64,000 nt of DNA from Arcobacter sp. Its GTDB lineage: Bacteria > Campylobacterota > Campylobacteria > Campylobacterales > Arcobacteraceae. A program made the translations under genes and the position numbers. The notes under the pieces were generated by a model that had not been told where the DNA came from, searched no databases, and worked only from the letters and a program-made list of their open reading frames with translations. Positions 8,509 through 45,589 of this stretch are shown piece after piece. The DNA lies in contig PKUJ01000006.1 of the NCBI GenBank assembly GCA_002869565.1, positions 5,270-69,269 on the forward strand, written 5' to 3'. Numbering within the stretch: the stretch's first letter is position 1; the number at the start of each line of letters is the position of its first letter.

Positions 8509-9432
8509 TCAATGATTAGAAATTGAATAGTATTTTTGTTCATATTTAGGATAAAGATTAATAATACTTCTTTCATACTCTTCTTCAAACATTGAGAATT
8601 CTTTTATATTATTTGGAACAGGTTTGCTTAGTATTTCAAATATATCCAGACCATTTTTTACACCATTTATTAAACTATTTTCTAGAAATTCTAAATAAGC
8701 TATATTTTCTTTTATTGGTTCTTTTGATTTTGATGCTTTTCCATGTCCTGGAACTAAAATAGAGTAGTTGATTTTTTTTAGTTTTTTTAAGGAGGATATC
8801 CATTTTTTGATATTTGCATGGGGTGTGGCGAGGGCTCTTTTATTAAAGATTAAATCAGAAGTATAGAGAATATTTGTTTTTCTATCAAATAGTACAATGT
8901 CACTTGAAGTGTGCCCATCAAAGTATAATACATCTAACTTATATCCATCCAAATCAATAGTTTTTGTGTTTAATATTACATTTGGAGCTTCCATTTTTGT
9001 GCCTTGCATAGCTTTTTGCACAATATTAACTAGGTTCATAATATATAAATCACCATTTTGTGAAATTTCATTTTGAGTAAATTTACTTGCATAAATTTTG
9101 TTATCTTTAAAAGCGTTGTTTCCTAAAAAATGATCAGGATGATGGTGTGTATTTATCACATATTTTATTGGTTTGTTTGTGATTTTTTTAATAGCTTCTT
9201 TTAATTGTTCTGCATACTCTTTTGAACTTCCTGTATCTATTAATATCACGCTATTTTTTGTAATAATAAAAGCTGTATTTGCAATATTTCCACCATTTTT
9301 TTCAGAAAAGTATTCCTCTTTTCCATAAAAATAGTAACTATTATCTGATAGTTTTATAGGTTTTAATTTATAATCAAAACTGTTTGCAAACAGTAAATTA
9401 ATAGATAGGACTATAAAAAATAGATTTTTCAT
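8509..9432 (-). CDS. Quinoprotein-relay metallo-beta-lactamase-fold hydrolase
   Basis: 307 residues with an N-terminal signal peptide (MKNLFFIVLSINLLFANS). Residues ~96-105 carry the zinc motif HHHPDH; DTGS, DGHTSSD and VPGHG supply the later metal ligands of the fold. The type matches the quinoprotein relay system zinc metallohydrolase found with PQQ alcohol dehydrogenases, a periplasmic protein of unproven reaction. It is the last gene of a four-gene - strand operon behind the SoxYZ-like carrier (two-base gap), so the operator at 11521 should control it. Confidence 0.85.
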   Translation of the reverse strand: MKNLFFIVLSINLLFANSFDYKLKPIKLSDNSYYFYGKEEYFSEKNGGNIANTAFIITKNSVILIDTGSSKEYAEQLKEAIKKITNKPIKYVINTHHHPDHFLGNNAFKDNKIYASKFTQNEISQNGDLYIMNLVNIVQKAMQGTKMEAPNVILNTKTIDLDGYKLDVLYFDGHTSSDIVLFDRKTNILYTSDLIFNKRALATPHANIKKWISSLKKLKKINYSILVPGHGKASKSKEPIKENIAYLEFLENSLINGVKNGLDIFEILSKPVPNNIKEFSMFEEEYERSIINLYPKYEQKYYSISNH

Positions 9433-9434
9433 TG

Positions 9435-10175
9435 TTATTTTGTATTCCCAATAAATTCATTTCCATCATTGTCATAAAATTCAATAGAATATTTTTTTGA
9501 CTTATCTTTTGTTTCAAATATAAATCTTGGATTTTCACTAATAGCAGAATAAGTTTCTATTGTGCCTAGGATTTTTTTCTCTTGTTTAATTATGATTTTA
9601 TTTATAAAGAATTCACTATTTCCAAAAACTAAACCTGTTTCCATTGGATGGAAAATAGAGGCTTTTAATCTAGAACCATCTTCTTTATCATACTGGCTTG
9701 TTTTAATTTTTCCTAAAAGTTTTGAAAAATCAGTGTTACTTGCTGCAACACTTGAAACTGCACAACCTCCGCCAAAGCTTTTTATATTTTCACTTCCCAC
9801 ATGCCAAAGATTATTTTCATCAAGAACTAAAGCCCTAAGTGGAGTCTCTTGGGCTACTTTCATATTTAAAGAGATAATAGGTAATAAATCATTTAATTTC
9901 ATATCGACAAGTTTAGGTATAGGATTTAAATCCGCAAATATAATCATTCTTTTTGCAGATTTAATTTTTTTAGCATCTACAAAAATAGGTACTTGTGTTG
10001 GATTATCCGCAAATTTTGGAACTTTTATAGTGATATTTTTATCATCAAATATATATTTTTGATTTTGAATTATCTCTTTCATAATATCATCAAATGTAGG
10101 GGATACTACAGGGTTGTTAGCATATAAATTTTGTATAAATATAATCGCTAAAATCAAGTTAAATAGATATTTCAT
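9435..10175 (-). CDS. Quinoprotein dehydrogenase-associated SoxYZ-like carrier
   Basis: 246 residues with a signal peptide (MKYLFNLILAIIFIQNLYA). The first ~150 residues resemble SoxY and end in the FGGGCAVSSVAA segment, the Gly-Gly-Cys arm that carries intermediates in SoxY. The remainder (MKTGLVF-like METGLVFGN ... YSIEFYDNDGNEF) resembles SoxZ. Such fusions accompany PQQ-dehydrogenase relay genes; the carried group is not known. It sits 11 bases behind the binding-protein gene. The 166-residue + strand ORF inside it is a shadow. Confidence 0.85.
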   Translation of the reverse strand: MKYLFNLILAIIFIQNLYANNPVVSPTFDDIMKEIIQNQKYIFDDKNITIKVPKFADNPTQVPIFVDAKKIKSAKRMIIFADLNPIPKLVDMKLNDLLPIISLNMKVAQETPLRALVLDENNLWHVGSENIKSFGGGCAVSSVAASNTDFSKLLGKIKTSQYDKEDGSRLKASIFHPMETGLVFGNSEFFINKIIIKQEKKILGTIETYSAISENPRFIFETKDKSKKYSIEFYDNDGNEFIGNTK

Positions 10176-10186
10176 AATAAATTCTC

Positions 10187-11056
10187 CTATTGGGTTTTTG
10201 ATAAAGGTGCTAAATAGCTAACTCCATATTTCTCAAAAATCTTTTTTATTTCACCATTTCTATAAGCTTTTTCTATAACTCCATCTACATGATAACTTAA
10301 GGCTCTATAACTACTTCCTACAGCAGTTGCTAAATCCCACTGTGATTTCATTTGTGGAATATTTTTTGTAAGCTGATATTTGTCTTTATTGTTTTTATAA
10401 TCTAATAGATATTCGAGTTGTGATTTTAATCCTGCAATTGCATCAATTTTTCCACTTTTAAAATCATCAATTGCTTTTTTGAAGTTTACATAATGTTTTA
10501 TATTTCTTCTTAGTAAACCTCTAGCAAATCCACTTAAATGTAAATCTGGAAGAGTATCAATTTCTACTCCAATAGTATTGTATGCAAATATACCTAGGGT
10601 ATTAAATTCTGGAATAGCTTTTTTATTTAAAGCTATTATCCATTTTTCACTTTGATAAGGTCCTTTAATAGTAACCATCTCCGTATCTAATTCACCAGTT
10701 GAAATATCTGTTGTTCTCATATAATCATAATCATATGGAACTCTAAACATCAAATCAGCTTTTGTTTTGTGAATTAAATTTCCCTTCCAGATATTGTTTC
10801 TTAAATCATCAGCTAGGCTTTCATCTGAACCTGTAAAGTACCACTTTGGCTTTACATTTAAAGATTTAGCTACTTTTTTACCAAGTTCAATATCAATACC
10901 TTTTGCTTCACCTTTTTCTATAAAAGAGTAGGGTGGAAAATTTGCATATACAGCTATGATGATTTCCTTACTATCTTTTATATCTTCTATACTCCTCGCA
11001 TAAGAAAAAGTTGACAGTAGTAATATTACTATTGATGATTTAAGAAGAAAATTCAT
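10187..11056 (-). CDS. Quinoprotein dehydrogenase-associated periplasmic binding protein
   Basis: 289 residues. Signal peptide MNFLLKSSIVILLLSTFSYA, then a family-3-like solute-binding fold (IIAVYANFPPYSFIEKGEAKGIDIELGKK). The DLMFRVPYDYDYMRTTD stretch is typical of the putative ABC transporter substrate-binding subfamily found next to PQQ dehydrogenases. No matching permease follows in this operon, so it may work as part of the periplasmic redox relay instead of in transport. It is the second gene of the operon, two bases behind the cytochrome gene. Confidence 0.85.
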   Translation of the reverse strand: MNFLLKSSIVILLLSTFSYARSIEDIKDSKEIIIAVYANFPPYSFIEKGEAKGIDIELGKKVAKSLNVKPKWYFTGSDESLADDLRNNIWKGNLIHKTKADLMFRVPYDYDYMRTTDISTGELDTEMVTIKGPYQSEKWIIALNKKAIPEFNTLGIFAYNTIGVEIDTLPDLHLSGFARGLLRRNIKHYVNFKKAIDDFKSGKIDAIAGLKSQLEYLLDYKNNKDKYQLTKNIPQMKSQWDLATAVGSSYRALSYHVDGVIEKAYRNGEIKKIFEKYGVSYLAPLSKTQ

Positions 11057-11058
11057 TT

Positions 11059-11475
11059 TTAGTCTTTTGGTAAAGTTATTAAATATGCTCTAATTGCCCA
11101 CATAGCTTCTTGGTTTAAAACTCCTTCAAATGGTGGCATATAAACGTTACCATTTCTAACTGCTCCACCTCTAATTCTTTCCATATACCACTCGTCACCA
11201 TCAATATTATCTTCTAAATATCTTAAATCAGGAGCAATACCTCCAGAAACAGCACCTAGGCCATGACATCTTGCACAGTTTTCACTATATGCATGTTCAC
11301 CAATTTCAATAGCAGTTTTATTTCCTTTATAAGGATTCTCTTCTAGCCATTCTTTTCCCAAATTTTCTAAACCTTTAGTATCAACTGGTTGTGGTGTTAC
11401 ACTCCCATGACCAAATGCTAATGCTGCTGTTGACACTAATATTGCCAGACCTAGTTTTTGAATTTTATTCATCAT
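11059..11475 (-). CDS. pedF: Cytochrome c-550, PedF type
   Basis: 138 residues with a signal peptide (MMNKIQKLGLAILVSTAALAFG). One heme-binding CARCH motif lies near residue 71 and a probable axial Met is in VYMPPFEG. The family is the periplasmic cytochrome c-550 that takes electrons from PQQ alcohol dehydrogenases (PedF/ExaB role). First gene of the relay operon pedF - binding protein - SoxYZ - hydrolase. A GCTATA direct-repeat operator and a TATAAT lie immediately upstream, divergent from a second copy serving the ABC operon. Confidence 0.88.
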   Translation of the reverse strand: MMNKIQKLGLAILVSTAALAFGHGSVTPQPVDTKGLENLGKEWLEENPYKGNKTAIEIGEHAYSENCARCHGLGAVSGGIAPDLRYLEDNIDGDEWYMERIRGGAVRNGNVYMPPFEGVLNQEAMWAIRAYLITLPKD

Positions 11476-11505: not shown

Positions 11506-11537
11506 ATTATAGACAGATTTTATAGCCTGATTATAGC
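11506..11537 (-). promoter_or_regulatory. PQQ-regulon operator and promoter of the relay operon
   Basis: On the - strand, GCTATAATCAGGCTATA (11537-11521), then nine bases, then TATAAT (11511-11506). It has the same layout as five other promoters of the island, and no separate -35 box is visible. Confidence 0.85.
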
Positions 11538-11558: not shown

Positions 11559-11590
11559 GCTATAATTGGGCTATACAAATTAAATACAAT
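11559..11590 (+). promoter_or_regulatory. PQQ-regulon operator and promoter of the NitT/TauT-type ABC operon
   Basis: GCTATAATTGGGCTATA at 11559-11575, nine bases, then TACAAT at 11585-11590. It is divergent from the relay-operon site 21 bases away. Confidence 0.85.
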
Positions 11591-15931: not shown

Positions 15932-16393
15932 TTATTCTATGCTATCTATAATGAGAGTTTTTAAGGTTTCGTTAATTTCCTCTGCAATTTTATCACCAAA
16001 TTTGAATGTTTTATAATATTTAAATGAAATGAATGTTGTATTTTTATTTTGACTATAAATAGAAATTGCTAAAGGACAATAGTTTATATTGAGGAAATTT
16101 TCACTCACCATTTTAAATGTAAAACTACTTTTACAAATACCTATATTAATCCCTTTTTCTAAAGAAGTTTTTCTTTCTAATAGTTTTGCAACAGTATTTG
16201 TACTTTTGGCCATATCAAGTTCATATACAATTGTAAAACCATTAAAAGTTAGTTCATCTTTTAGATTTAATAAACTATTTTCAAAACTTGTATTACTAAC
16301 TTTTACTATAAAAAGATTTTTATTTCTTTCTATTTGATATTCCGCATTTGAAAATGAAAAAATTCCTAGAAATAAAAAAAATAGTTTTTTCAT
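15932..16393 (-). CDS. DUF302 domain protein, secreted
   Basis: 153 residues with a signal peptide (MKKLFFLFLGIFSFSNA). FENSLLNLKDELTFNGFTIVYELDM followed by INIGICKSSFTFKMV and YCPLAISIYSQ match DUF302, a small alpha/beta domain of unknown role that often appears beside sulfur, heme or PQQ periplasmic genes. Its ATG overlaps the stop of the binding-protein gene (16390) by four bases, so the two are co-transcribed from the operator at 17579. Confidence 0.8.
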   Translation of the reverse strand: MKKLFFLFLGIFSFSNAEYQIERNKNLFIVKVSNTSFENSLLNLKDELTFNGFTIVYELDMAKSTNTVAKLLERKTSLEKGINIGICKSSFTFKMVSENFLNINYCPLAISIYSQNKNTTFISFKYYKTFKFGDKIAEEINETLKTLIIDSIE

Positions 16394-17538
16394 TGTTTAC
16401 AGTTCATTTCAAATGGTGCAATACCTAAGGTATCTAAATCAGTAATTGGATGTAAAAAACCAACTTGAGGAGAAGTAGATATTAAAGCCCTTGGTTGTAC
16501 TAAAGATATAGGCATTCTAAGTTGTCCATTATATTCTCTAAAAGATAACTTTCTTCCCATGTAAGCTCCTAATTCAAACTCTTTTGAATGGATATAATCT
16601 AAATTTGTTTTTAAATTTGAACTTTGGGTACGGGTAATTGCATTTATAATAGTTCTAACTGCTAACCAATTTGAAAAATCTTTTTCTTGCATCCATCTTG
16701 AAGCAAATTTTTCAAATCTACTTTGCATTTGAGCTGCTCCCCATTGTTCAATTACTTTATGCCAAATAAGAGGTTTCAATCCTTGTGTCCCTGCGATTGG
16801 CCTTGGAAGCCAAGTATTAAAATACATAAACTCTCCAAAATCTCCATAATAATCACTAAGAAGTATTAAATCATAATCATCTGCTTGGGTAAATACTGGA
16901 AATTCTGAATTTGCTTTTCTTCTTATATCACTATTATTTTCCCAAGTTTTTTCTTTGACAATTTTTGCACCAAATTTTTTAATAGCTCTTTTTATATCTT
17001 GTGTTATTTGTTTGTCTTTTTCATTTTTACCATTTACTAAAAATATATCTTTAAAGTTTCTTTTTATCAAAAATTGAACTAATCCATCATAAAGCATAGC
17101 GTTACTTGCACTTGTATGAAGTAAGTTTTTTTGACAATAATTTTTTCTCAAATCCGTATTTTGGCTACTGGCATTTATTAGTAAAGCTTTTTTTGAAAGA
17201 GGGTGTTGTAAAATTTTTTTCAATAAATCATCTTCTACATTTAATATCACAAAGCTATTATTTTCAACTATAAAATCTTCGAAACTTTTTTTTAATTCAT
17301 CTTCATCATAAGAGATTTTAGTAATTAATTTAAAGTTTTGATTTAAAAATTTAGCACTTTTATTACTATCTTTTATGGCTATTTCTGCCCCTTGTAATCC
17401 TAAATCTTTAGGTTCTTCTATAACATTTGATAAGACTGGTGGTTTTTTGATTTTTTGCTCTAGGTATAAAATATTTACATTTAAAGTTTGAGCACTAATA
17501 GTGGAAATAAGTAGTATTAATAGTATTGAAAATCTCAT
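16390..17538 (-). CDS. Substrate-binding protein of the PQQ alcohol-dehydrogenase ABC system
   Basis: 382 residues. Signal peptide MRFSILLILLISTISA, then a branched-chain-amino-acid-type periplasmic binding fold. EPKDLGLQGAEIAIKDSNK and the closing PQVGFLHPITDLDTLGIAP are characteristic of the family named for the PQQ-dependent alcohol dehydrogenase system. It is the likely partner of the ATPase and permease at 22069-23577. In Pseudomonas putida the equivalent ABC system (PedA1A2BC) is needed for growth at low lanthanide concentration, so lanthanide-linked uptake is a reasonable inference here. Confidence 0.82.
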   Translation of the reverse strand: MRFSILLILLISTISAQTLNVNILYLEQKIKKPPVLSNVIEEPKDLGLQGAEIAIKDSNKSAKFLNQNFKLITKISYDEDELKKSFEDFIVENNSFVILNVEDDLLKKILQHPLSKKALLINASSQNTDLRKNYCQKNLLHTSASNAMLYDGLVQFLIKRNFKDIFLVNGKNEKDKQITQDIKRAIKKFGAKIVKEKTWENNSDIRRKANSEFPVFTQADDYDLILLSDYYGDFGEFMYFNTWLPRPIAGTQGLKPLIWHKVIEQWGAAQMQSRFEKFASRWMQEKDFSNWLAVRTIINAITRTQSSNLKTNLDYIHSKEFELGAYMGRKLSFREYNGQLRMPISLVQPRALISTSPQVGFLHPITDLDTLGIAPFEMNCKQ

Positions 17539-17563: not shown

Positions 17564-17595
17564 AGTATATTAAAGTTTTATAGCTTGAATTTAGC
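17564..17595 (-). promoter_or_regulatory. PQQ-regulon operator and promoter of the binding protein-DUF302 operon
   Basis: - strand GCTAAATTCAAGCTATA (17595-17579), nine bases, TATACT (17569-17564). The operator is identical to the one before the beta-propeller gene. Confidence 0.85.
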
Positions 17596-21038: not shown

Positions 21039-21070
21039 GCTAAATTCAAGCTATAAACTTCTATTACAAT
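21039..21070 (+). promoter_or_regulatory. PQQ-regulon operator and promoter of the beta-propeller/ABC operon
   Basis: GCTAAATTCAAGCTATA at 21039-21055, nine bases, TACAAT at 21065-21070, 30 bases before the ATG. Confidence 0.85.
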
Positions 21071-22815: not shown

Positions 22816-23577
22816 ATGAAAGGAATCATTTACAAAGAGTTAATAAGATTTGTAAAACAAAAAAGTAGATTTTTTTCTGCACTTGTGAGACCTCTATTAT
22901 GGCTATTTATATTTTCAGTTGGATTTAAAGCTGCTTTGGGATTAGCTATTATTCCTCCTTATGAAACATATATTACTTATGAAACCTATATTGTTCCGGG
23001 ACTTGTGGGAATGGTTTTACTATTTAATGGAATGCAAAGTTCTCTTACTATGATATTTGATAGGGAAATGGGAAGTATGAAAATTCTTTTAACCTCATAT
23101 ATTAATAGAAACTATTTACTCTTTTGTAAGATGTTTGCTACATCTATTGTATCTTCTATTCAAGCTTTAACTTTTTTGATTATTGCTAGACTTTATGGGG
23201 TAGATATTTCTTATTTGGCAATTTTTTTAACAATACCAGTGATAATGGTATCATCAATAATTTTAAACGCTTTTGCACTTTTTATATCATCTGTTATAAA
23301 ACAATTAGAAAACTTTGCAACGGTTATTAACTTTGTAATTTTCCCAATGTTTTTCTTAAGTTCAGCACTTTATCCTCTTTGGAAGATAAAAGATTCTTCA
23401 ATACTTTTATTTAATATTTCTTCATATAATCCATTTACATATATAGTAGAATCAATTAGGTTCTCTTTGTACCAAAAATTTGAATTTGAGTTGTTTTTTG
23501 TCTTGGCAGTTTCTTTCGTAGTTAGCCTATTTATGGCCTTTATAGGTTTTAAATCTAAAAAAGTAAACCGTAGCTAA
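22816..23577 (+). CDS. ABC-2 type permease of the PQQ alcohol-dehydrogenase system
   Basis: 253 residues with six membrane helices. VRPLLWLFIFSVGFK, then YETYIVPGLVGM and SYNPFTYIVESIR follow the ABC-2 membrane family, PedC/LutF subtype. It starts 24 bases after the ATPase. Its last codons overlap the operator for the dehydrogenase promoter (23573-23589), so the regulator site is partly coding. Confidence 0.85.
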   Translation: MKGIIYKELIRFVKQKSRFFSALVRPLLWLFIFSVGFKAALGLAIIPPYETYITYETYIVPGLVGMVLLFNGMQSSLTMIFDREMGSMKILLTSYINRNYLLFCKMFATSIVSSIQALTFLIIARLYGVDISYLAIFLTIPVIMVSSIILNAFALFISSVIKQLENFATVINFVIFPMFFLSSALYPLWKIKDSSILLFNISSYNPFTYIVESIRFSLYQKFEFELFFVLAVSFVVSLFMAFIGFKSKKVNRS

Positions 23578-23604
23578 ACTCAGGCTATATTTGTCTTGTA
23601 TACT
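23573..23604 (+). promoter_or_regulatory. PQQ-regulon operator and promoter of the dehydrogenase-pqq operon
   Basis: GCTAAACTCAGGCTATA at 23573-23589, overlapping the preceding stop codon, nine bases, TATACT at 23599-23604. Confidence 0.85.
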
Positions 23605-23655: not shown

Positions 23656-25446
23656 ATGATTAGAAATAAACTACTAACTAGCGCAGTGGCCGTTACACTA
23701 TCTGCACTAATTAGCGGGTGCGTTACTTCAAACAGCACAGTAAATAATAGCCTGAATGAGGTTACAAAACCATCATATGCACCAGTTACTTACAAAGAAA
23801 TTCTAAATGATGAGAAATCTACGAATGATGTTCTTACCTATGGTATGGGACAAAAAGGTCAAAGATTTTCACCTTTAGATCAAGTTAATAAGGAAACTGT
23901 AAAAGATTTAGTTCCTGTATGGAATTTTTCTTTTGGTGGAGAGAAACAAAGAGGACAAGAGTCGCAACCAATTGTTAAAGATGGTGTTATGTATGTAACT
24001 GCATCTTATTCTAGAATTTTTGCAATTGAAATAGCTACAGGTGAAGAGTTATGGCAATATGATGCAAAACTTCCAGATGCAATTTTACCTTGTTGTGATG
24101 TTATCAATAGAGGTGCTGCAATATTTGATGATTTAATAATATTTGGAACATTAGACGCAAAACTTGTTGCTCTTAACAGAAAAACAGGAAAAGTTGTATG
24201 GAAAAAAAGAGTAGCTAAGTATAAAGATGGTTATTCAATAACTGCTGCACCTATGATTGTAAAAGGTATGGTAGTTACTGGTGTTGCTGGTGGTGAGTTT
24301 GGTATTGTTGGTAAAGTAGAAGCTAGAGATGCAAAAACTGGAGAAGTAATCTGGACTAGACCAACAGTTGAAGGTCATATGGGTTACTTAAATGGTAAAG
24401 AAAATGGTATTTCTGGTGGAGAAGCTGGTAAAACTTGGCCAGGTGATTTATGGAAATCTGGTGGAGCTGCAACTTGGCTTGGTGGAACTTATGACCCAGA
24501 AACAGATTTAATTTTTATGGGAACTGGAAATCCTGCTCCTTGGAATTCACATTTAAGACCAGGGGATAACTTATTCTCTTCTTCAAGATTAGCAATTAAT
24601 CCTGATACAGGGAAAATTGTATGGCATTTTCAAACAACTCCACATGATGGATGGGATTTTGATGGTGTAAATGAGTTAGTATCATTTGACTATGAAAAAG
24701 ATGGCAAAACTGTAAAAGCTGCAGGAACTGCTGATAGAAATGGTTTCTTTTATGTATTAAATAGAGAAAATGGTAAGTTTATTACAGCTAATCCTTTTGT
24801 TTCAAATATTACTTGGGCAACTGGGATTGATAAAAATGGTAGACCAATGTATACAGCAGATGGAAGACCAGGTAATCCAGGAACTGAAAGTAAAGGTAAA
24901 TCTGTATTTTCTGTACCTTCATTCTTAGGTAGAAAAAACTGGATGCCAATTTCGTATTCTAAAAATACAAAAATGTTCTATGTTCCTTCAAATGAGTGGG
25001 GAATGGATATTTGGAATCAACCAGTTTCATATAAAAAAGGTGCTGCATATTTAGGTGCTGGATTTACTATTAAACCAATTTTTGAAGATCATATTGGTTC
25101 TTTAAAAGCAATTGATCCATTAACTGGAAAAATCAAATGGAATTACAAAAACCCTGCACCATTATGGGCAGGAATTTTATCTACTGCTGGTGGACTTGTA
25201 TTTACAGGAACTCCTGAAGGTAAATTCTTAGCATTTGATGATGAGACTGGGAAAATCTTATATAAATTCAATGTAGGATCTGGAATTGTTTCTTCTCCAA
25301 TTACGTGGGAAGATAATGGTGAACAATATGTTGCTGTAGTATCTGGTTGGGGTGGAGCTGTTCCTTTATGGGGTGGTCAAGTTGCTAAAAAGATTAAAAA
25401 TATCAACCAAGGTGGAACGGTCCACGTATTTAAATTACATAGATAG
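23656..25446 (+). CDS. PQQ-dependent alcohol dehydrogenase, lipoprotein, lanthanide-type active site
   Basis: 596 residues. Lipobox ALISGC places a lipidated Cys at residue 22, so the enzyme should be membrane-anchored in the periplasm; most relatives are soluble. The eight-bladed quinoprotein fold is clear: the vicinal disulfide C146-C147 (LPCCDV), GTGNPAPWN for the metal-binding Asn, and [10 protein letters not shown]. In the last, D334 is the catalytic base and D336, two residues on, is the additional Asp that marks lanthanide-dependent enzymes (XoxF, PedH); calcium enzymes have Ala or Ser there. The substrate is probably a short alcohol. No own cytochrome gene follows, so PedF-type cytochrome is the likely acceptor. 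The pqq genes follow in the same operon. Confidence 0.9.
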
Positions 25447-25490: not shown

Positions 25491-25565
25491 ATGAAATGGG
25501 AAACACCAATGTTCGTTGATAATAGATTTGGATTTGAAGTTACAATGTATATTTGTCACGTATAA
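25491..25565 (+). CDS. pqqA: PQQ precursor peptide PqqA
   Basis: 24 residues, too short for the ORF track. MKWETPMFVDNRFGFEVTMY contains the E-x-x-x-Y pair (E16, Y20) that PqqE cross-links and that becomes PQQ. A strong AAAGGAGG Shine-Dalgarno precedes it by nine bases, 45 bases after the dehydrogenase stop. A terminator hairpin behind it would favour excess peptide message over the enzymes. Confidence 0.95.
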   Translation: MKWETPMFVDNRFGFEVTMYICHV

Positions 25566-26611: not shown

Positions 26612-27367
26612 ATGACTAAAAGAATGGATATATTACTGACAAAAGAAGAGTTTGAAGCAAAACTTAGAGGTATGGGAGAGATGTATCATATTCATCACCC
26701 TTTTCATGTAAGAATGTATGAAGGTACTTGCACTAAAGAAGAGATTCAAGGTTGGGTTGCAAATAGATTCTACTATCAAACTGCTATTCCTATTAAAGAT
26801 GCGGCAATTATGTCAAATAATCCACCACTTGAGGATAGAAGAAAATGGATAGATAGAATTATTGATCATGATAGTGTTGGTGGAGGAATTGAAGCTTGGT
26901 TGGAACTTGGTGAAGCTGTTGGACTTGATAAAGAAGATTTAATTTCACATAAATATGTTTTACCGGCAGTAAAATTTGCAGTTGATGCATATATAAATTT
27001 TGCTAAACAATCTCCTTGGAAAGAGTCAGCAATGTCATCTCTCACAGAGATGTTTGCACCTCAAATTCATCAACAAAGACTTGATACTTGGCCAAAAAAT
27101 TATCCATGGATTGAGCAAAATGGATTAAGATATTTTCAAAAAAGATTAAGTGAAGCAAGACGTGATGTACAACATGGTTTAGCTATGACATTAGAAGAGT
27201 TTGATACTATAGAGTTACAAAATAGAGCCTGTGAAATATTACAATTTAAATTAGATATTTTATGGACTATGTGTGATGCTTTATACTTAGCATACGAATT
27301 AAAAAGACCACCATACTTTAATATAAAGGATTGCAATGCAACTAGAAAAATCACTTGCAGTGAATGA
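26612..27367 (+). CDS. pqqC: Pyrroloquinoline-quinone synthase PqqC
   Basis: 251 residues. [14 protein letters not shown], then [18 protein letters not shown] and IDHDSV ... [14 protein letters not shown] are PqqC (TenA-like helical) motifs with the catalytic His and Tyr residues present. It carries out the last ring closure and oxidation with molecular oxygen. Its 3' end overlaps pqqD by 32 bases in another frame. AAGGGGAAG precedes the ATG. Confidence 0.95.
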
Positions 27368-27605
27368 ACATTTTCAATTGCAATTTGAAGAAGCACAAGA
27401 GTGTTTCGTATTATTATATCCTGAAGGTATGGTTCAATTAAACCAAAGTGCTGGCGAGATAATGAATCTTTGTGATGGGAAAAACTCTTGTTTAGATATT
27501 GCTAAATTATTAGAAGAAAAATTTAATATGCCTGATTTAAAAAAAGATGTTGAAGCATTTTTACTTGAAGCAATGGAAAGAAAGTGGGTGGTTTATGGAA
27601 ACTGA
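27336..27605 (+). CDS. pqqD: PQQ peptide chaperone PqqD
   Basis: 89 residues. [27 protein letters not shown] and [18 protein letters not shown] match the PqqD RiPP-recognition fold that presents PqqA to PqqE. It starts inside the end of pqqC, with AAAGGA just before it, and its last codons overlap the pqqE start, so the three are translated together. Confidence 0.93.
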
Positions 27606-30505: not shown

Positions 30506-31165
30506 CTAATTTGGCCTTTCTACCATGTATCCAATTCCACGAATATTTATAATAAAGTCTTCTTTTAGTACTTTTTTTACTCGATTTACTTCCGCTCTTA
30601 TTGTAGCATTATCTATGTAGTCATCATTCCAAACATAATCTCTAAACATATCATAATTACAAACTAAACTTCTATTTGCTGCAAGTAAATCTATGATTTG
30701 GATTTGTCTTTTTGGTAGTATTTGAGGTTCATTGTTAAACAGTAAAATCATATTTTTAGAGTCATAACTATAAGATTTTGATAATCTTTTGTGTTCTTGA
30801 GGTACTTGTCTTGTTTGTAAAATTTTATTAATTCTTAGTGTTAACTCTTTTAAGTGAAAAGGCTTTTTCAAATAATCATGACAACCTATATCAAAAGCTC
30901 TAGTAATATCTTCTATATCAATTAGTGCTGAAATAAATATTGTAGGTACCATTCTTTTTTGTTTATGTAAATCTTCTAAAATAGATATACCATCTTGATC
31001 TGGTACATTTATATCAAATACTAAAAGATCAAATTGTTCATTTGCCAATTTTTCTACGCAGCCATTTCCATCCATTGTAGAAACTACTGCATGTCCTGTT
31101 GATTCAAGATATTGAGTTATTGCTTTATTTAACATAATATCATCTTCTAAAAGTAATATTTTCAT
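30506..31165 (-). CDS. OmpR-family response regulator, candidate PQQ-regulon activator
   Basis: 219 residues. The receiver has LLLEDD, phospho-acceptor D51 in LLVFDINVPDQDG and the conserved Lys in YLKKPFHLKEL. The C-terminal winged helix ends NATIRAEVNRVKKVL ... IINIRGIGYMVE. The ATG overlaps the kinase stop by four bases, so the two are a pair. OmpR/PhoB-type regulators bind direct repeats of about 11 bp just upstream of the -10 box. That is exactly the layout of the seven GCTATA operators in this island, which makes this protein the best candidate for the activator (inference). Confidence 0.88.
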   Translation of the reverse strand: MKILLLEDDIMLNKAITQYLESTGHAVVSTMDGNGCVEKLANEQFDLLVFDINVPDQDGISILEDLHKQKRMVPTIFISALIDIEDITRAFDIGCHDYLKKPFHLKELTLRINKILQTRQVPQEHKRLSKSYSYDSKNMILLFNNEPQILPKRQIQIIDLLAANRSLVCNYDMFRDYVWNDDYIDNATIRAEVNRVKKVLKEDFIINIRGIGYMVERPN

Positions 31166-33057
31166 TTACATCCTTTAAACGAATAAGAAAAACTTGTCTC
31201 TTCTAAATTAGATTTTACATCTATAAGAACATTTTCTTCTTCACAAATTCTTTTGACTAAATTTAATCCTAGTCCAAACCCATCTTTTGAATGTTCTTCT
31301 CTATAATATTCATCAAATATTTTTTCAGGGTTTTGTATTTTTCTAGAATGACTAGTAACTATAAATTTCACACACTCATTATTTTGAATAATATCAACTT
31401 TTATAGGATCTCCTTTAAAAGTATATTTTATAGCATTTGTAATTGAATTATCAATAATTCTTTGTAGTTTTGTTTCACTGAAATCTACTAAGATTTTTTT
31501 ACTATTGGTTTTAAATAAAAATTTTGAATTTGTCATAGTTATTGCTACACTCTCGAAAAAATCTACTCTATTTCTTACAAAATCTATCAAATCAATGGTG
31601 TAAACTTTATATTCAACTTGGTCTTTTTTTACTAAGTAACTCAAATCATCATAGATTGAGAAGATATTTTTAACCGCAACTTCAATATTTTCTAAATAAG
31701 TACTCTTTCCATATTCCATTTCATGTAAATCAATATTACTAACAATAACGGAAAGGGGAGTATTTGTTTCATGAACAGAGTGTCTTAAAAATAGTTTTTG
31801 GTTTTTTAAAAGGTGTTCAGAATAGGCTATTTGTTTTTCTAAAGCCTTTGCTTGTTCATTTTGATCTTTTGCACTTTGCTGAATTAGACTAGTCAAGGCT
31901 TGAATGCTTCTTGAATAGGCAAGATCTTGGCTACTTACCATATTATTTGATGGTGCCTGTTGTATATTTAAATCAGGGTTTTCTGATAAACCAACTACTG
32001 TAATTGTTTCATTTGTTAATTCATTTTTATTATCTGCATGAAAAAATTCTGCATAAGTAAAAAATCCAGAAGTTGTAGCAACTGATGCAAAAGGCTCAAT
32101 TTCAATTCTTGTTAAACTTTGCATATATCTACGTCGTGCCATACAAGAGTAAATAAAAAAGGTTTCAGCAGGTTTTGATTCAATATTTTCAAGATATTCA
32201 AAAGGAGTATTAATTATTCGTTCTGCATCAGCAAATCCAATTTTTACTTTATCTCCTTGATATAACCCTCCTGCACAACCTAAACTTCCATCTGGGTATT
32301 TAGTAACTGTTGCTCTTGCTATTGATATACCATTTCTTTCAACCATTAGTGGAAACTCTGTAAAAGTTGCTAAATTTCCACTACCTAAATATTTTTTATA
32401 AAAATCTATTGCTCTCATTCCTGAAATTTCATAGATTCTATTACCCTCTATTCTATCAATTGTATGTTCTATTCCTATTGGAGACCAACCATGTTTTATG
32501 TCATTTTGAACTTGAAGTATATCTGAGTTTAAGGATATAGCAACTGCACCATGATCGATAATTTCTGTTCCTGAAGAGATAAATGTTCTTAAAAATTTCC
32601 CATTATCTCCTGCCATTCCTCCTGCAACCATAATTGAACTATTAAAAGAGTTTATTCCTGCAAGATATTTTTCTCCATTAGTATATGTACTATCTGTGAA
32701 TGTTATAATTAATTTTGTATTTGGGGTAACTATATCTTGTGCTATTTCATAACCATTTTTAAAAGAATCTCCATGGTTTTTTATAGATGTTTTAACTGTT
32801 GTATTCTCAAAAGTAGATATAGCTATTATTGTTTTAAGTGTAGAAACTTTTGTATTTTTTATTTCACCATCAGTAGTGGTTCCTATACAAATAGCATGTG
32901 GTAAATTTCTAGATAAAGTATCAATGATAAATTGTAAAGTGCTTTCATCATTACCACAAAAAACTTGTATCAAAATATTTTTTTGTCTTTTAAAAAAAGC
33001 GTAATCAATTTCATCTTTAAATAGATTGTTTTGAAAAGTATAGTTGTATGTTCTCAT
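31162..33057 (-). CDS. FIST-domain sensor histidine kinase
   Basis: 631 residues with no membrane helix, so cytosolic. Residues ~1-200 are FIST_N (CIGTTTDGEI, VAGGMAGDN) and ~210-370 FIST_C (YEISGMRAIDFYKKYLG ... FIYSCMARRRY). A short coiled linker, the H-box VHETNTPLSV (H429) and an HATPase domain (N-box DNSITNAIKYT, G-box DGFGLGLNLVKRI) follow. FIST domains bind small ligands, probably amino-acid-like. FIST kinases near PQQ alcohol dehydrogenases are known in other bacteria, so the kinase may sense a substrate or product of alcohol oxidation. It is divergent from the aldehyde dehydrogenase gene. Confidence 0.88.
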   Translation of the reverse strand: MRTYNYTFQNNLFKDEIDYAFFKRQKNILIQVFCGNDESTLQFIIDTLSRNLPHAICIGTTTDGEIKNTKVSTLKTIIAISTFENTTVKTSIKNHGDSFKNGYEIAQDIVTPNTKLIITFTDSTYTNGEKYLAGINSFNSSIMVAGGMAGDNGKFLRTFISSGTEIIDHGAVAISLNSDILQVQNDIKHGWSPIGIEHTIDRIEGNRIYEISGMRAIDFYKKYLGSGNLATFTEFPLMVERNGISIARATVTKYPDGSLGCAGGLYQGDKVKIGFADAERIINTPFEYLENIESKPAETFFIYSCMARRRYMQSLTRIEIEPFASVATTSGFFTYAEFFHADNKNELTNETITVVGLSENPDLNIQQAPSNNMVSSQDLAYSRSIQALTSLIQQSAKDQNEQAKALEKQIAYSEHLLKNQKLFLRHSVHETNTPLSVIVSNIDLHEMEYGKSTYLENIEVAVKNIFSIYDDLSYLVKKDQVEYKVYTIDLIDFVRNRVDFFESVAITMTNSKFLFKTNSKKILVDFSETKLQRIIDNSITNAIKYTFKGDPIKVDIIQNNECVKFIVTSHSRKIQNPEKIFDEYYREEHSKDGFGLGLNLVKRICEEENVLIDVKSNLEETSFSYSFKGCK

Positions 33058-33170: not shown

Positions 33171-33225
33171 GCTATATTCAAGCTATATTATTGGCTATAT
33201 TCAGGCTATAATATTAATGTAAACT
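33171..33225 (+). promoter_or_regulatory. Tandem PQQ-regulon operators and promoter of the aldehyde dehydrogenase
   Basis: GCTATATTCAAGCTATA at 33171-33187 and GCTATATTCAGGCTATA at 33194-33210, 23 bases apart start to start (about two helical turns). Nine bases and TAAACT at 33220-33225 follow. It is the only double site seen. Confidence 0.87.
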
Positions 33226-33301
33226 TTCATTACAGAAAAAATCTGATACAAAATATTTGTTCAGATTAATTCAACAAAAACTAATTATAAAAGGAAAAAA
33301 A

Positions 33302-34798
33302 ATGGCATACGCTAAACCAACTTTCAAACCTCAGTACGAAAACTTTATCGGTGGAGAATGGGTCGCTCCAACAAGTGGAGAATATTTTGATAATCTATCA
33401 CCAGTAGATGGTGAAATTTTAACAAGAATTCCAAGATCAAATGAAGCAGATGTTGATGCAGCAGTAGCAGCAGCAATGACAGCTTTTGAATCTTTCAAAC
33501 ATACTTCTATAATAGAAAGAAGTACTATGTTAAATAAAGTTGCAGATGCAATTGAAGCTAACTTAGAACAATTAGCAGTAGCTGAAACTTTAGATAATGG
33601 TAAAGCAGTAAGAGAAACTTTAGCTGCTGATATTCCTTTAGTTGTTGATCATTTTAGATATTTTGCTTCAGTTATTAGAGCTGAAACAGGTACAGTTGCT
33701 GATTTAGATGAAACTACTGTATCTCAAGAAGTTTACGAGCCATTAGGTGTTGTAGCTCAAATTATCCCTTGGAATTTCCCATTATTAATGGCTGCATGGA
33801 AAATAGCTCCTGCTTTAGCTGCTGGTAACTGTGTAGTTTTAAAACCAGCAAGTGCTACTCCAATGGCAATTTTAATTTTAATGGAAATCATCCAAGATGT
33901 TCTTCCAAAAGGTATTGTTAATATTATTAACGGTGCAGGTGGAAAAATTGGTAAACATTTATCAACTCATCCAGATGTTAAAAAAGTTGGATTTACAGGT
34001 GAAACTACAACTGGTCAGTTAATTATGCAATATGCAACTGAAAATATTATTCCTTCTACATTAGAACTTGGTGGAAAATCACCAAATATTTTCATGGAAT
34101 CAATCATGGATGCTGATGATGAGTTCTTTGATAAAGCAATTGAAGGTCTTGTACTATTTGCATTTAACTCAGGAGAAGTTTGTACTTGTCCATCAAGAGC
34201 ATTAATTCAAGAATCAATTTATGAGCCATTTATGGCAAGAGTTTTAGAGAGAGTTAAAGCTATTAAATTAGGAGATCCATTAGATCCAACTTGTATGATG
34301 GGAGCTCAATGTTCAACTTCTCAAAAAGAGAAAATTATGGAATACATCAAAATTGGTAAAGAAGAAGGTGCTGAGTGTTTAATTGGTGGAGATGAATACG
34401 TAAGTGAAACTCATCCAAATGGTAACTACATCCAACCAACACTATTTAAAGGTCACAACAAAATGAGAATCTTCCAAGAAGAAATTTTTGGACCAGTACT
34501 TGCTGTTACAACTTTTAAAGATGAAGAAGAAGCTTTAGCAATCGCTAACGATACAATTTATGGATTAGGTTCAGGTATTTGGTCAAGAGATGCACACCAA
34601 TTACATAAATTTGCAAGAGGAATTGAAGCAGGTAGAGTATGGGTTAACTGTTACCATATGTACCCATCTCATGCATCATTCGGTGGATATAAAAAATCAG
34701 GTATCGGTAGAGAAACTCACATGATGATGCTAAACTCTTATAGACATACAAAAAATATCTTAACTTCTTACTCTAAAAATGCACTAGGTTTTTACTAG
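33302..34798 (+). CDS. NAD-dependent aldehyde dehydrogenase (ExaC/AldB-like)
   Basis: 498 residues from ATG 33302 with AAAGGAAAAA upstream; the track's start at 33257 would lie too close to the promoter. Catalytic features are intact: LELGGKSPN with the general base Glu, nucleophile Cys in NSGEVCTCPSR, and the NAD-binding IPWNFPLLMAAWK and GFTGET. Cytosolic oxidation of the aldehyde produced by the periplasmic PQQ enzyme is the natural role, supported by the shared operator. A DUF779 gene, the usual companion of this subfamily, follows. Confidence 0.9.
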   Translation: MAYAKPTFKPQYENFIGGEWVAPTSGEYFDNLSPVDGEILTRIPRSNEADVDAAVAAAMTAFESFKHTSIIERSTMLNKVADAIEANLEQLAVAETLDNGKAVRETLAADIPLVVDHFRYFASVIRAETGTVADLDETTVSQEVYEPLGVVAQIIPWNFPLLMAAWKIAPALAAGNCVVLKPASATPMAILILMEIIQDVLPKGIVNIINGAGGKIGKHLSTHPDVKKVGFTGETTTGQLIMQYATENIIPSTLELGGKSPNIFMESIMDADDEFFDKAIEGLVLFAFNSGEVCTCPSRALIQESIYEPFMARVLERVKAIKLGDPLDPTCMMGAQCSTSQKEKIMEYIKIGKEEGAECLIGGDEYVSETHPNGNYIQPTLFKGHNKMRIFQEEIFGPVLAVTTFKDEEEALAIANDTIYGLGSGIWSRDAHQLHKFARGIEAGRVWVNCYHMYPSHASFGGYKKSGIGRETHMMMLNSYRHTKNILTSYSKNALGFY

Positions 34799-34925: not shown

Positions 34926-35297
34926 ATGGCAACTGAAAGATTAGCTGTAACTCCTGCAGCAGCAGAAGTTATAGAAAAATTAAAAGAAGAAAATGGTGAA
35001 TTAGTATTTAACCAAAGTGGTGGTTGTTGTGATGGAACTGCTCCTATGTGTTATGCCAAAAGTGATTTTTATGTACCTTCTAGAAATATAAGGATGGGCG
35101 AAATTTGTGGTTGTGAATTTTTTATTGATAAAGACCAATTTGAATATTTTAAACATTCACATTTAACTATTGATGTAAAAGAAGAAAAAGCTGCTTTTGG
35201 AAACTCTTTTTCTCTTGAAATAGATTTAGGTTATCAGTTTATCTCAAAATCTAGAATTTTTACAGATGAAGAGTATAAGAATTTAGATGATGTTTAA
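34926..35297 (+). CDS. DUF779 family protein
   Basis: 123 residues. NQSGGCCDGTAPMCY, with its CC pair, and GEICGCEFFIDKDQFEYFKHS are the DUF779 hallmarks. Genes of this family almost always follow aldehyde dehydrogenases such as ExaC; a small Cys-rich cytosolic accessory role is assumed but not proven. It is separated from the dehydrogenase by a strong terminator, and its message may be folded over the start region. Its 3' end overlaps the opposing methyltransferase gene by four bases. Confidence 0.85.
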   Translation: MATERLAVTPAAAEVIEKLKEENGELVFNQSGGCCDGTAPMCYAKSDFYVPSRNIRMGEICGCEFFIDKDQFEYFKHSHLTIDVKEEKAAFGNSFSLEIDLGYQFISKSRIFTDEEYKNLDDV

Positions 35298-38795: not shown

Positions 38796-40763
38796 TTACG
38801 ATAAAGGGAGTTCTATTTTAAATAAAGCTCCTAGATATTCTTTGTCTTTATACTGAAAAGTATTATTTTTAACTTGTATATCTCCTTTTAAACTATTCTC
38901 AATAATATTTTTCGTCATATATAATCCTATTCCAGTTCCTTGAGCTTTGAATTTTGTTGTGAAGTATGGTTCAAAAATACGATCAATAATATCATTTTTT
39001 ATTCCACCCGCATTATCAAAAATTTCAATAATAAAAATATTTTCTTTTTTATATGTTTTTATAAAAATAAGTTTTGGATCATTTTTGTCAATTAAAGCAT
39101 CTTTTGCATTGTTCATTATATTTAAAATGACTTGAACAAGTTCATTTTCATAAGTATTGAGTTTTACATCTTCTATATCTATTATTAACTCAATATAATG
39201 ATTTTTTATATTTGCAGATATTAAACTCAAGACTTGATTTATTGTATTATTCAACTCAAATTCATTTTTAACTTTTTTTTGTGAATAAAAATTTCTAAAA
39301 TCATCAATTGTTTTAGATAATATTGAAGTACTTTTTACAATATTTTGTAAATCAGCATCTACTTGTTTGTCATCTATTAGATTCATCTCTTTCTGAACTC
39401 TAATTCCACTAGCTAGTGTACTGATTGCTGATAATGGTTGTCTCCATTGGTGAGCAATATTTCCAAGCATCTCTCCCATTGCTGCAAGTTTTGATTGTTG
39501 ATTTAATATGATATCTTTTTCTCTTATATCAGATACTTGTTCTTTAACTTTTTTTTCTAATTCATCATTTAAATTTTTCAGTCTTATGTTTGCTTCTTCT
39601 AATCTTTGAGAATAAAATTTAAAGAGTTTTTTTATTCTTTTAGATAAGAGTATTATCAATATGATGATAATAAAAGATACTAGAGCAGAAACTTTTATTA
39701 TAGTTTTAATATCATCTTCTAAAGTTATCTTTAATTCCATGCGTTTTTGTTTAATTTGTTGATTTAACTTATCCGTATAAAGTCCTGTTCCTATAACCCA
39801 ATCTAAAATAGGGATATATTTTATATAAGAGATTTTTTTTGAAGGATTAATATCTTTAAATAGTTCTTCTGATTGAGTATATTCGATAAATGCATTATTA
39901 GATTTTTTTGCTTTTGTGATAATATCTTCCACATTTTTTTTTATTTTTTTATCAAGTTTTTCAAGTGGAACATCTAATATTTTTTTATTTTTATGAACTA
40001 ATGCTGTTCCTTTTGAATTCATAATAAATATATAACTATTATCATTGTATTCTAAGGTATTTACAAAATTTAGATTTTCATTAACAATAGTTGTTCTCAA
40101 GTCTTCTAAATAAATAGCTGTTCCAATATATAGATTAAGTGGTTCAAATTTTTTGATGTATCCAATTTTTTTACTTTGGATATTGCTATTTGGTTTGTTC
40201 CAATACCATTCGTGATAACCTTCATTATCTTTATCTAAAACTTTCATAAAACTATCATATAAATTCATCCCTTTTTTATCTACAATGTGTCTGATATCTT
40301 TTCCTACTAAATTAGGATTTGCAGGCATAGAAATAGCTGTGCCACTTGAGATGTCTTGAATAAAAAAGTATCCTGTTTTATTATCAAAAAAACGAATATT
40401 TCTCATGCTTTCATCAATGACTTTATAAAGTTCATTTTTTGATAAGTGTTTATTATTTTGATAAATGTTTTCTAATATGGCATAACCTATAGTAATTTTA
40501 TCTTTTACTTCTTTTTTTGATTCTAGTAGTTGATTAATGTAATTATTGCTTAAAAGTAAAGATATATATTTTATCCGTTCTTCAATTTTTCCTTTTAGAT
40601 TACTTATATGATTTTTTTCAATATTTACTATTTCTAAATTATGTGCTTTATGTTTAGAAGAAATGAATATATTTGTTAGAATAAAGGAGGTGAGTATAAC
40701 TCCAATAATTGGAAGTAATATAATCCATTTGATAATTTTTGATTCAGCTACGAAATTTTTCAT
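38796..40763 (-). CDS. Sensor histidine kinase with tandem Cache domains
   Basis: 655 residues. A membrane helix at ~12-33, then two related extracytoplasmic Cache modules (NKTGYFFIQDISSG ... KKIGYIKKFEPLNLYIGTAIY and KISYIKYIPILDWVIGTGLY), a second helix at ~355-375, a coiled linker, the H-box NIAHQWRQPLSAIS and an HATPase domain (GTGIGLYMTK). The periplasmic part probably senses a small organic acid or amino acid. No response regulator gene is adjacent. The overall plan equals that of the kinase at 43289. Confidence 0.87.
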   Translation of the reverse strand: MKNFVAESKIIKWIILLPIIGVILTSFILTNIFISSKHKAHNLEIVNIEKNHISNLKGKIEERIKYISLLLSNNYINQLLESKKEVKDKITIGYAILENIYQNNKHLSKNELYKVIDESMRNIRFFDNKTGYFFIQDISSGTAISMPANPNLVGKDIRHIVDKKGMNLYDSFMKVLDKDNEGYHEWYWNKPNSNIQSKKIGYIKKFEPLNLYIGTAIYLEDLRTTIVNENLNFVNTLEYNDNSYIFIMNSKGTALVHKNKKILDVPLEKLDKKIKKNVEDIITKAKKSNNAFIEYTQSEELFKDINPSKKISYIKYIPILDWVIGTGLYTDKLNQQIKQKRMELKITLEDDIKTIIKVSALVSFIIIILIILLSKRIKKLFKFYSQRLEEANIRLKNLNDELEKKVKEQVSDIREKDIILNQQSKLAAMGEMLGNIAHQWRQPLSAISTLASGIRVQKEMNLIDDKQVDADLQNIVKSTSILSKTIDDFRNFYSQKKVKNEFELNNTINQVLSLISANIKNHYIELIIDIEDVKLNTYENELVQVILNIMNNAKDALIDKNDPKLIFIKTYKKENIFIIEIFDNAGGIKNDIIDRIFEPYFTTKFKAQGTGIGLYMTKNIIENSLKGDIQVKNNTFQYKDKEYLGALFKIELPLS

Positions 40764-43288: not shown

Positions 43289-45589
43289 TTATAGAGTGAT
43301 AGTAAATTTGGCACCTTTACATTTGATATCTTTATAAAAATAAGTATAATTTTCAACTCTTAATTTGCCATAAAGTGAGTTTTTAACTATATCTTGGCTC
43401 ATGTATAATCCGACACCTGTTCCTTGGCTTTGGTGTTTTGTAGTGAAATATGGTTCAAATATTCTATCTATTATATTTTCAGGTATTCCTTGGGCACTAT
43501 CATATATTTCTATATAGGAAAGATTATTTTTTTGATAGGTTTTTATAAAAATAAGTTTTTGCTCTGGTTGAATTGAAAGAATTGCATCTTTAGAATTGTT
43601 TAAAATATTCATTAATACTTGAATAAGTTCATTTTCAAAAGATTTAATTTTAAAATCTTTTATATCTTGAACGAGTTCAATCTCTTTTGTTTCAAATTGT
43701 GAACTAATCAAATTAAGAGTTTTACTTATAGTATTAGAGATATTAAATTCTTTTATAACTTTATTCTTTTGGTCAAAGAATCCTCTAAAATCTTCTATGG
43801 TGTTAGATAAATATTGTGCTGAATCATTTATTCTATCCATGGTCTCATAAAATTTATCTTCATCAAATAAATTCATCTCTTTTTGTAGTTTTGCTCCTGT
43901 TGCTGTTACTGAGATTACAGATAGAGGTTGTCTCCATTGATGTGCAATATTACCAATCATTTCACCCATGGCAGCCAATTTACTTTGTTGATAAAGCAAT
44001 TGTTCTTTATCTTTTTTCTCAATTTCTAAATTTTTACTTTCAGTTACATCTTGAATTGTACCAATTATGATATTTTTTTCTTTATCAAGTCTCCCCCTGC
44101 ATTCTAGCCACCTTATTTCATTATCAGGTTTATAAATTCTAAACATAGTTCTATTTTGTTTATTCTCAATCATACACTCTTCTAAAAAAAGTTCAAATTC
44201 TATAAGATCTTCTTCAAGAATGATATTCCTCATATATTCAGGAGACAAGGTAATACTTTTTTCTTCTATTCCAAATATATGTAAAACTTCTTCCGACCAT
44301 TCGGCTATATTTGTAGATGGAATTAATTTCCAACTTCCTATTTTTGCTACTTTTTGAGCTTCAAGAAGAGTCTCTTTCTGTTCAATATTTTCTATGATTT
44401 GTGCTTCTAAATTCTTTTTATATTCAACTAATCTATGAGTAATCATTCTTGAAATATAAAAAGATAATAGTACAAAAAATAGTGTAAGAATTAAACTGAT
44501 GACAATAATTTGTTTAATAGATTCATTCATAGAATTTGTTAATAGAACTTTTCTTTCTGCAATTTGTTGATTAAGATTATCAAGATAAAATCCCGTACCT
44601 ATTATCCAATTCCAATCTTTGAAAAACTTAACATATGAAATTTTTGTTCTATTTTTTTCTTCTTCTTCAGGTTTAAATTTTATAATATAAGGAATAAAAC
44701 CTTCTTGTTCTTTTTTTGCAAAATTTATTATATCTTTAATATAAAAATGACCATTAATATCTTGTTCTTTTATTCTATTTTTACCTATAAATTCTTTTTT
44801 AAAACTTGAAAGAGTTTTTCCTTTTTCATCAAATATAAAAATATACCCAGATTTGTTAAAACGCATTTTTCTTATTCTTTTTAGTAATCTTTGCTTTATT
44901 TCATTTTCAAAATCTTCAATATATTCCCCCGTTCCAATGGCGAAATTAAAAGGTTCAAAATATTTATAAAAACTTGTTTTTTTATATGATTTATCTCTAT
45001 TAGAACCTTTGTACCAGTAGTAAGTATCAAATCTCTCAGTTTTATCTTTTATTGTTTGAACAATAGTTTTTACAAACTGATAACCTTTTGCATCTTTAAA
45101 TTCTAATTTGTTTTTATTCTCTAGCTCTTTATTTAAAGGTTGAAGTAGCCCAACTCCTTGTGCACTATCTATAAAAAAATAACCTCTTCCTTTATTATAG
45201 ATAATACTTCCTAGTGCATTTTTTATTGTTTTAAATATATGTTCTTCGCTGTGTTTAAGTCCATTGTCAAATTTAGATTCTTCAGTATATATATTTGTTG
45301 CAATTTTATGTGCTTCATATACTCTATCTTTTATCATTTCTTTTAGTGCTTCTTCTGCTTGTGCTTTTTCTTCTTTTATTTCTTCATAAACTCTTTCAAC
45401 TTCATTTTTAATTCTCTTTTTGTTGTCATCAAAATAAGTTTTTTCAACAAGTTGTATCTCTTTTTTAAAGCTGAGATTTTTTTCGTAAATAAAAGTTTCA
45501 GTAATAAAAAATGCAAAGATAATAACAAATATAATTGGTCCAAATTTAATTATATTAATTATGAGTTTTTCATCTTTAAGCATTCTCAC
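43289..45589 (-). CDS. Sensor histidine kinase with tandem Cache and PAS domains
   Basis: 766 residues. Helix at ~10-30, double Cache periplasmic region (GRGYFFIDSAQGVGLLQP ... YKYFEPFNFAIGTGEY and TKISYVKFFKDWNWIIGTGFY), helix ~360-380, one PAS domain (~410-515: WSEEVLHIFG, MFRIYKPDNEIRWLECRG), the H-box NIAHQWRQPLSVIS and an HATPase domain (GTGVGLYMSQ). It is a close relative of the kinase at 38796 plus a PAS insertion, pointing to duplication. The ligand is unknown and no regulator gene is adjacent. Confidence 0.87.
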   Translation of the reverse strand: MRMLKDEKLIINIIKFGPIIFVIIFAFFITETFIYEKNLSFKKEIQLVEKTYFDDNKKRIKNEVERVYEEIKEEKAQAEEALKEMIKDRVYEAHKIATNIYTEESKFDNGLKHSEEHIFKTIKNALGSIIYNKGRGYFFIDSAQGVGLLQPLNKELENKNKLEFKDAKGYQFVKTIVQTIKDKTERFDTYYWYKGSNRDKSYKKTSFYKYFEPFNFAIGTGEYIEDFENEIKQRLLKRIRKMRFNKSGYIFIFDEKGKTLSSFKKEFIGKNRIKEQDINGHFYIKDIINFAKKEQEGFIPYIIKFKPEEEEKNRTKISYVKFFKDWNWIIGTGFYLDNLNQQIAERKVLLTNSMNESIKQIIVISLILTLFFVLLSFYISRMITHRLVEYKKNLEAQIIENIEQKETLLEAQKVAKIGSWKLIPSTNIAEWSEEVLHIFGIEEKSITLSPEYMRNIILEEDLIEFELFLEECMIENKQNRTMFRIYKPDNEIRWLECRGRLDKEKNIIIGTIQDVTESKNLEIEKKDKEQLLYQQSKLAAMGEMIGNIAHQWRQPLSVISVTATGAKLQKEMNLFDEDKFYETMDRINDSAQYLSNTIEDFRGFFDQKNKVIKEFNISNTISKTLNLISSQFETKEIELVQDIKDFKIKSFENELIQVLMNILNNSKDAILSIQPEQKLIFIKTYQKNNLSYIEIYDSAQGIPENIIDRIFEPYFTTKHQSQGTGVGLYMSQDIVKNSLYGKLRVENYTYFYKDIKCKGAKFTITL

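Follow-up and report, generated by a model that had tools for sequence, protein, structure and literature searches.

Regulatory systems associated with quinoprotein alcohol oxidation have been described in Pseudomonas. NosP-NahK (PA1975-PA1976) and PP_2663-PedS1, each combining a FIST protein with a soluble histidine kinase, are encoded beside the exa/ped PQQ cluster (PMC12997753). NosP binds haem and senses NO (PMC12570481); no natural FIST ligand beyond haem and NO in this protein was found established in the literature. The FIST protein of NosP-NahK is separate from its kinase, a hybrid kinase acting via HptB/RsmA on biofilm dispersal. PQQ-dependent ethanol oxidation is regulated by ErbR/AgmR, EraSR and PedS2-PedR2; these regulators, some of them two-component systems, act on exaA/ped-type operons, and the review makes no mention of a FIST domain in them (PMC12997753).

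The Arcobacter kinase-regulator pair considered here shares with NosP-NahK its FIST component, soluble kinase and position beside PQQ alcohol-oxidation genes, and with the second group the control, here predicted, of such operons. However, its FIST domain is fused to a simple kinase, the adjacent regulator is of the OmpR type (LuxR type in the case of AgmR), the sensors are different, PedS2 being responsive to rare-earth elements (PMC12997753), and a predicted operator is located at the oxidation genes. The pair very probably switches on a small, widely conserved alcohol/aldehyde oxidation gene set in Arcobacter-like bacteria. A literature search turned up no publication on the pair.

Gene island and kinase-regulator pair

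The pair belongs to Arcobacter sp. (contig PKUJ01000006.1 of GCA_002869565.1; genome of 3.49 Mb) and lies in a stretch of 64,000 nucleotides analysed as a whole, called the window below (Table 1). The surrounding island (8.5-36.3 kb of the window) is a ped/exa-type quinoprotein cluster comprising genes for a PQQ alcohol dehydrogenase, cytochrome c, a SoxYZ-like carrier, a zinc metallohydrolase, PQQ-associated ABC parts, pqqB/C/E, a 24-codon pqqA and an ExaC-like aldehyde dehydrogenase (ALDH). The cluster type is indicated by matches to TIGR03075, TIGR04557, TIGR04558, TIGR03863 and TIGR03866, the ExaC model being matched below its cut-off. The short pqqA (MKWETPMFVDNRFGFEVTMYICHV; 25491-25565, plus strand) precedes pqqB, and the interval between pqqC and pqqE (27367-27547) leaves no room for a separate pqqD.

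The kinase matches FIST_N (3e-37, 128.7 bits) and FIST_C (1e-18, 68.2 bits) of Pfam. It retains the phospho-acceptor His429, located in HETNTPL, and has no predicted membrane segment (highest 19-residue hydropathy 0.95). The regulator exceeds the Pfam cut-offs for both Response_reg (84.6 bits) and Trans_reg_C (35.9 bits) and possesses the acidic pair D8/D9, phospho-Asp D51 and K101. The two genes, divergent from the ALDH gene, overlap by 4 bp (ATGA) and are therefore probably translationally coupled. Kinase orthologues occur in 56 relatives (47-76% identity), and the regulator orthologues adjoining them are 57-93% identical.

The arrangement differs from that of NosP, a stand-alone FIST protein with a separate kinase. 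The NahK/ErcS model NF041832 scores 41.5 bits (cut-off 400), and the kinase has no receiver domain. It stands outside the NahK/ErcS family and very probably acts through its own OmpR-type regulator.

The original prediction regarded this as the only two-component pair within the island, and so it appears: no further response regulator was detected among the window ORFs scanned with Pfam, and the dCache histidine kinases of the window lie outside the island. These two (38796-40763 and 43289-45589) flank outer-membrane efflux and aminotransferase genes; no response regulator was found near them in the window. A second FIST kinase (L056:3195-5105, contig C16), 34% identical to the first, has neither the operator nor an obvious adjacent response regulator.

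Table 1. Genes, codons and operators of the predicted FIST kinase regulon (window positions unless a locus or contig is named)
Feature	Position	Strand	Remarks
FIST-domain sensor histidine kinase	31162..33057	-	631 aa, soluble; Pfam FIST_N, FIST_C, HisKA, HATPase_c
OmpR/PhoB-type response regulator	30506..31165	-	219 aa; Pfam Response_reg, Trans_reg_C
Codon of FIST Cys305	32143..32145	-	invariant; aligned to aldehyde-reactive Cys326 of human FBXO22
Codon of FIST Glu337	32047..32049	-	invariant; aligned to FBXO22 Glu362
Aldehyde dehydrogenase (ALDH)	33299..34798	+	top NCBIfam match acetaldehyde dehydrogenase ExaC, 832 bits (cut-off 900)
DUF779 protein	34926..35297	+	immediately 3' of ALDH; arrangement conserved
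Operator 1, ALDH promoter	33171..33187	+	motif match
Operator 2, ALDH promoter, promoter-proximal	33194..33210	+	-10 TAAACT at 33220-33225
Operator, PQQ alcohol dehydrogenase (23656-25446)	23573..23589	+	motif and -10; conserved in relatives
Operator, beta-propeller/ABC-2 operon (start codon 21100)	21039..21055	+	motif and -10; conserved
Operator, PQQ-associated substrate-binding protein operon (16390-17538)	17579..17595	-	motif and -10; conserved
Operator, cytochrome c/SBP3/SoxYZ-like/MBL operon (8509-11475)	11521..11537	-	motif and -10; conserved
Operator, NMT1-type ABC importer operon (from 11618)	11559..11575	+	motif and -10; conserved
FAD/NAD pyridine-nucleotide oxidoreductase	L136:996-2195 (C25:83998-85191)		outside island; seventh perfect genome operator
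Cytosolic FIST-MCP chemoreceptor	L197:1399-3384 (C21:199700-201682)		operator at C21:199642

Predicted operator and promoter geometry

In PhoB-type class-II activation, head-to-tail half-sites with an 11-bp period replace the -35 element at a fixed distance from the -10. The operator predicted at six island promoters, GCTAwAnTCAnGCTATA, is composed of two half-sites 11 bp apart, and its -10 invariably lies 26 nt downstream. It thus resembles the pho box in head-to-tail layout, 11-bp period and fixed -10 distance, and differs from it in half-site sequence (GCTAwA), signal and targets. The earlier suggestion that the layout suits an OmpR-class regulator agrees with this spacing, since regulators of the OmpR/PhoB class bind direct-repeat half-sites with a period of 10-11 bp; binding itself is a prediction here. 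The ALDH promoter, divergent from the pair, indeed carries the sole doubled operator of the six, as had been noted; its dimer sites are 23 bp apart, the 11-bp spacing being kept within each dimer.

The window contains seven motif matches against a mean of 0.11 expected from a first-order Markov simulation (100 runs, maximum 2). A pattern search of the entire 3.49 Mb genome revealed exactly seven mismatch-free places where a -10 (TANNNT) follows the motif at +26, six in the island and one elsewhere; the reversed control pattern gave no match across the same genome. In 83 of 88 aligned operators, mostly from relatives and collected with a pattern that excluded the -10, the -10 begins at an offset of 26 nt from the first G, and any other offset occurs in at most 17 cases. 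Successive half-sites in this set are mostly spaced by 11 bp (178 cases), a spacing of 12 bp being rare (nine).

These promoters have a good -10 and no -35, and the operator sits over the -35 region. Since a protein bound there can also block RNA polymerase, the pair could instead repress the operons, the signal releasing repression. Repression would tolerate variable placement, whereas contact-dependent class-II activation requires a fixed geometry such as the 26-nt one at some 80 promoters; repression is thus improbable, and the geometry argues with good confidence for activation.

Association of the operator with the pair

The comparison set comprised 150 genomes, namely this genome and its relatives. 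A kinase orthologue, full-length or nearly so (partial in G032 and G056), occurs in 57 of them, usually with the regulator adjoining. Motif and kinase are found together in 45 genomes, the kinase alone in 12, the motif alone in two and neither in 91 (Fisher p=1.4e-24 overall and 1.6e-14 inside the family, values that overstate significance, the relatives being non-independent). Each motif-only genome has a single match; these sites (G022 and G084) were rejected as operators, both lying inside coding frames. In most kinase-only genomes tested, degenerate 11-bp GCTA arrays precede ALDH, and one genome from another family (G097) has the kinase and no exact motif, retaining the 26-nt geometry.

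The operator is absent from all five ALDH promoters examined in pair-less genomes. Conversely, the ALDH operator is kept where the gene no longer adjoins the pair (L147, L154) and where ALDH and the pair lie on separate contigs (G018, G036). Against the proposed control of ALDH, the gene is unlinked and operator-free in the outgroup genomes G109 and G139, and G130 shows no operator. At ALDH of the pair-less G087 and G080 (L169, L170), an apparent decayed half-site (ATGCTATG) stands before TATAAT.

The proposed pair-operator link is thus strongly supported, as the motif tracks the kinase, is missing at the pair-less ALDH genes examined and follows unlinked ALDH. Gain and loss over several genera make linkage or common ancestry alone an unlikely cause of the co-occurrence, judged from genome comparison. 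Binding of the motif by another regulator, with the pair co-occurring through linkage, would have a possible agent in the MarR gene within the island (14425), which was rejected because only one other island examined contains it; with the ALDH motif kept away from the pair and not found at pair-less ALDH, this explanation is very improbable. The regulator of the pair is by far the best candidate, and it very likely binds the operator.

Composition of the predicted regulon

The kinase is present in each of the 24 genomes that carry the PQQ dehydrogenase, and 33 of the 57 kinase genomes lack this enzyme; in those of the latter examined, the operator precedes ALDH. ALDH thus looks like the ancestral, core target, to which the quinoprotein genes were apparently added later. 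The original prediction of a master switch of quinoprotein alcohol oxidation is therefore too narrow: its pair-operator link and, by inference, the sensing of a cytosolic product are retained, and the restriction to quinoproteins is not. The six island targets recur in other genera. Beyond the island, the regulon also takes in the genes of an FAD/NAD oxidoreductase and a FIST chemoreceptor, joined in some relatives by eutB.

The operator of the FAD/NAD oxidoreductase, perhaps an NDH-2-like enzyme, is present in 11 of 13 PQQ-positive vs none of eight PQQ-negative kinase genomes (up to 4 mismatches counted). That of the FIST-MCP chemoreceptor occurs in 10 of 11 PQQ-positive vs none of five PQQ-negative genomes of the family (up to 3 mismatches, -10 in place); in the eleventh PQQ-positive genome (G082), the FIST-MCP gene sits in the PQQ cluster itself, flanked by the beta-propeller and ABC-2 genes. 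Ethanolamine ammonia-lyase (eutB), which produces acetaldehyde and not ethanol, belongs to the regulon in three lineages. Its operator is exact in G058 (L138:1035-2435) and has 2-3 mismatches, with the -10 at +26, in G029, G055 and G089, that is, in four of the 12 kinase genomes having eutB; it is absent in the eight others, including this genome.

Repeats of three to four half-sites also stand before a gene for a small cytochrome c-like protein in G058 (L137:2490-3297) and G065 (L139:1827-2597), their spacing to the -10 being less clear. A TolC-like OEP gene of this genome (contig C2), preceded by a one-mismatch site, was rejected as a regulon member, the site not being conserved in 16 relatives.

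FIST domain and its possible ligand

The structural model of the FIST domain (mean pLDDT 84) is most similar to human FBXO22 (Z 20-21), followed by chorismatases and cyanuric acid hydrolases (Z 11-13), which FBXO22 itself was reported to resemble in fold (PMC11185555). A search of solved structures with the single FIST sequence returned only kinases, and one with the orthologue profile nothing relevant. A scan of genome contigs yielded mostly distant loci and served to sample FIST diversity. A profile built from diverse FIST domains gave a weak FBXO22 match (E 0.8), used only because the fold comparison backs it; it places Cys305 and Glu337 opposite Cys326 and Glu362. The aldehyde-binding site of FBXO22 comprises Cys326, on which aldehydes form a hemithioacetal, and Glu362, which is required; unlike the bacterial domain, the FIST domain of FBXO22 is the substrate-recognition domain of an E3 ubiquitin ligase, and the aldehyde adducts described derive from synthetic degrader compounds (PMC11208438, PMC13316043). 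The Cys, Arg and Glu residues are invariant across all FIST proteins aligned, including stand-alone NosP-like ones, and thus do not single out an aldehyde sensor. No assignment of an aldehyde as ligand of a bacterial FIST domain was found in the literature.

In line with the original suggestion, what the FIST domain senses is probably a cytosolic product and not the alcohol itself. With two FIST proteins in an aldehyde-centred regulon and eutB among the targets, an aldehyde is the simplest common signal, to which about an even chance is given. Hemithioacetal formation at Cys305, suggested by the alignment with FBXO22, is more doubtful. PQQ is an unlikely ligand, since 33 kinase genomes lack the quinoprotein dehydrogenase.

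The same pair and regulon could respond to another ligand, such as an alcohol, acetate or other acyl product, or redox/NADH state. Few FIST ligands are known, and cytochrome c and the FAD/NAD oxidoreductase in the regulon are compatible with redox sensing; however, ALDH is the target in those examined of the quinoprotein-less kinase genomes, and eutB, the source of acetaldehyde, was recruited in three lineages, which leaves this alternative rather unlikely. It is less probable still that the domain binds haem and senses NO as in NosP, alcohol oxidation being one output among others. NosP FIST proteins do bind haem and control kinases (PMC12570481), and nosP-nahK adjoins the PQQ cluster in Pseudomonas (PMC12997753), but the Arcobacter kinase is no NahK/ErcS orthologue, and the targets examined included no gene for NO detoxification or denitrification.

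Proposed mechanism and significance

What the computational analysis shows is the operator together with its promoter geometry and targets, as well as the way it tracks the pair. The best overall explanation, which appears moderately probable, is a two-component switch responding to a cytosolic signal, an aldehyde being favoured, with class-II activation of aldehyde/alcohol oxidation. The FIST domain would sense a cytosolic pathway signal, for which a short aldehyde, for example acetaldehyde, is the most likely candidate, and it may do so through a reversible hemithioacetal at the invariant Cys305 beside Glu337. The kinase would then transfer phosphate to Asp51 of the OmpR-type regulator, dimers of which would bind in head-to-tail orientation to a pair of GCTAwA half-sites with an 11-bp period, covering positions from about -38 to -21. 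Positioned over the -35 region, they would recruit polymerase to promoters having a good -10 and no -35. The ALDH promoter, often with two or more dimer sites, would be the ancestral core target, to which genomes with the PQQ dehydrogenase would have added its operons, the FAD/NAD oxidoreductase and the FIST chemoreceptor.

A wider and quite tentative proposal is that FIST is a covalent aldehyde-receptor domain, whose invariant Cys and Glu could form reversible hemithioacetals with short aldehydes, and that Arcobacteraceae-like bacteria use this chemistry twice, in the kinase and in the co-regulated FIST chemoreceptor. If true, the aldehyde adducts that compounds induce in human FBXO22 would take advantage of an ancient, natural feature of FIST domains.

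The pair represents a variant two-component system whose predicted regulon is new and well delimited. Comparative genomics links a FIST kinase with a defined operator and with a regulon that is metabolically coherent, which opens the ligand of the kinase to a search with few candidates. For Campylobacterota, it would provide a control of quinoprotein alcohol oxidation unlike the regulators known in Pseudomonas from the literature found.
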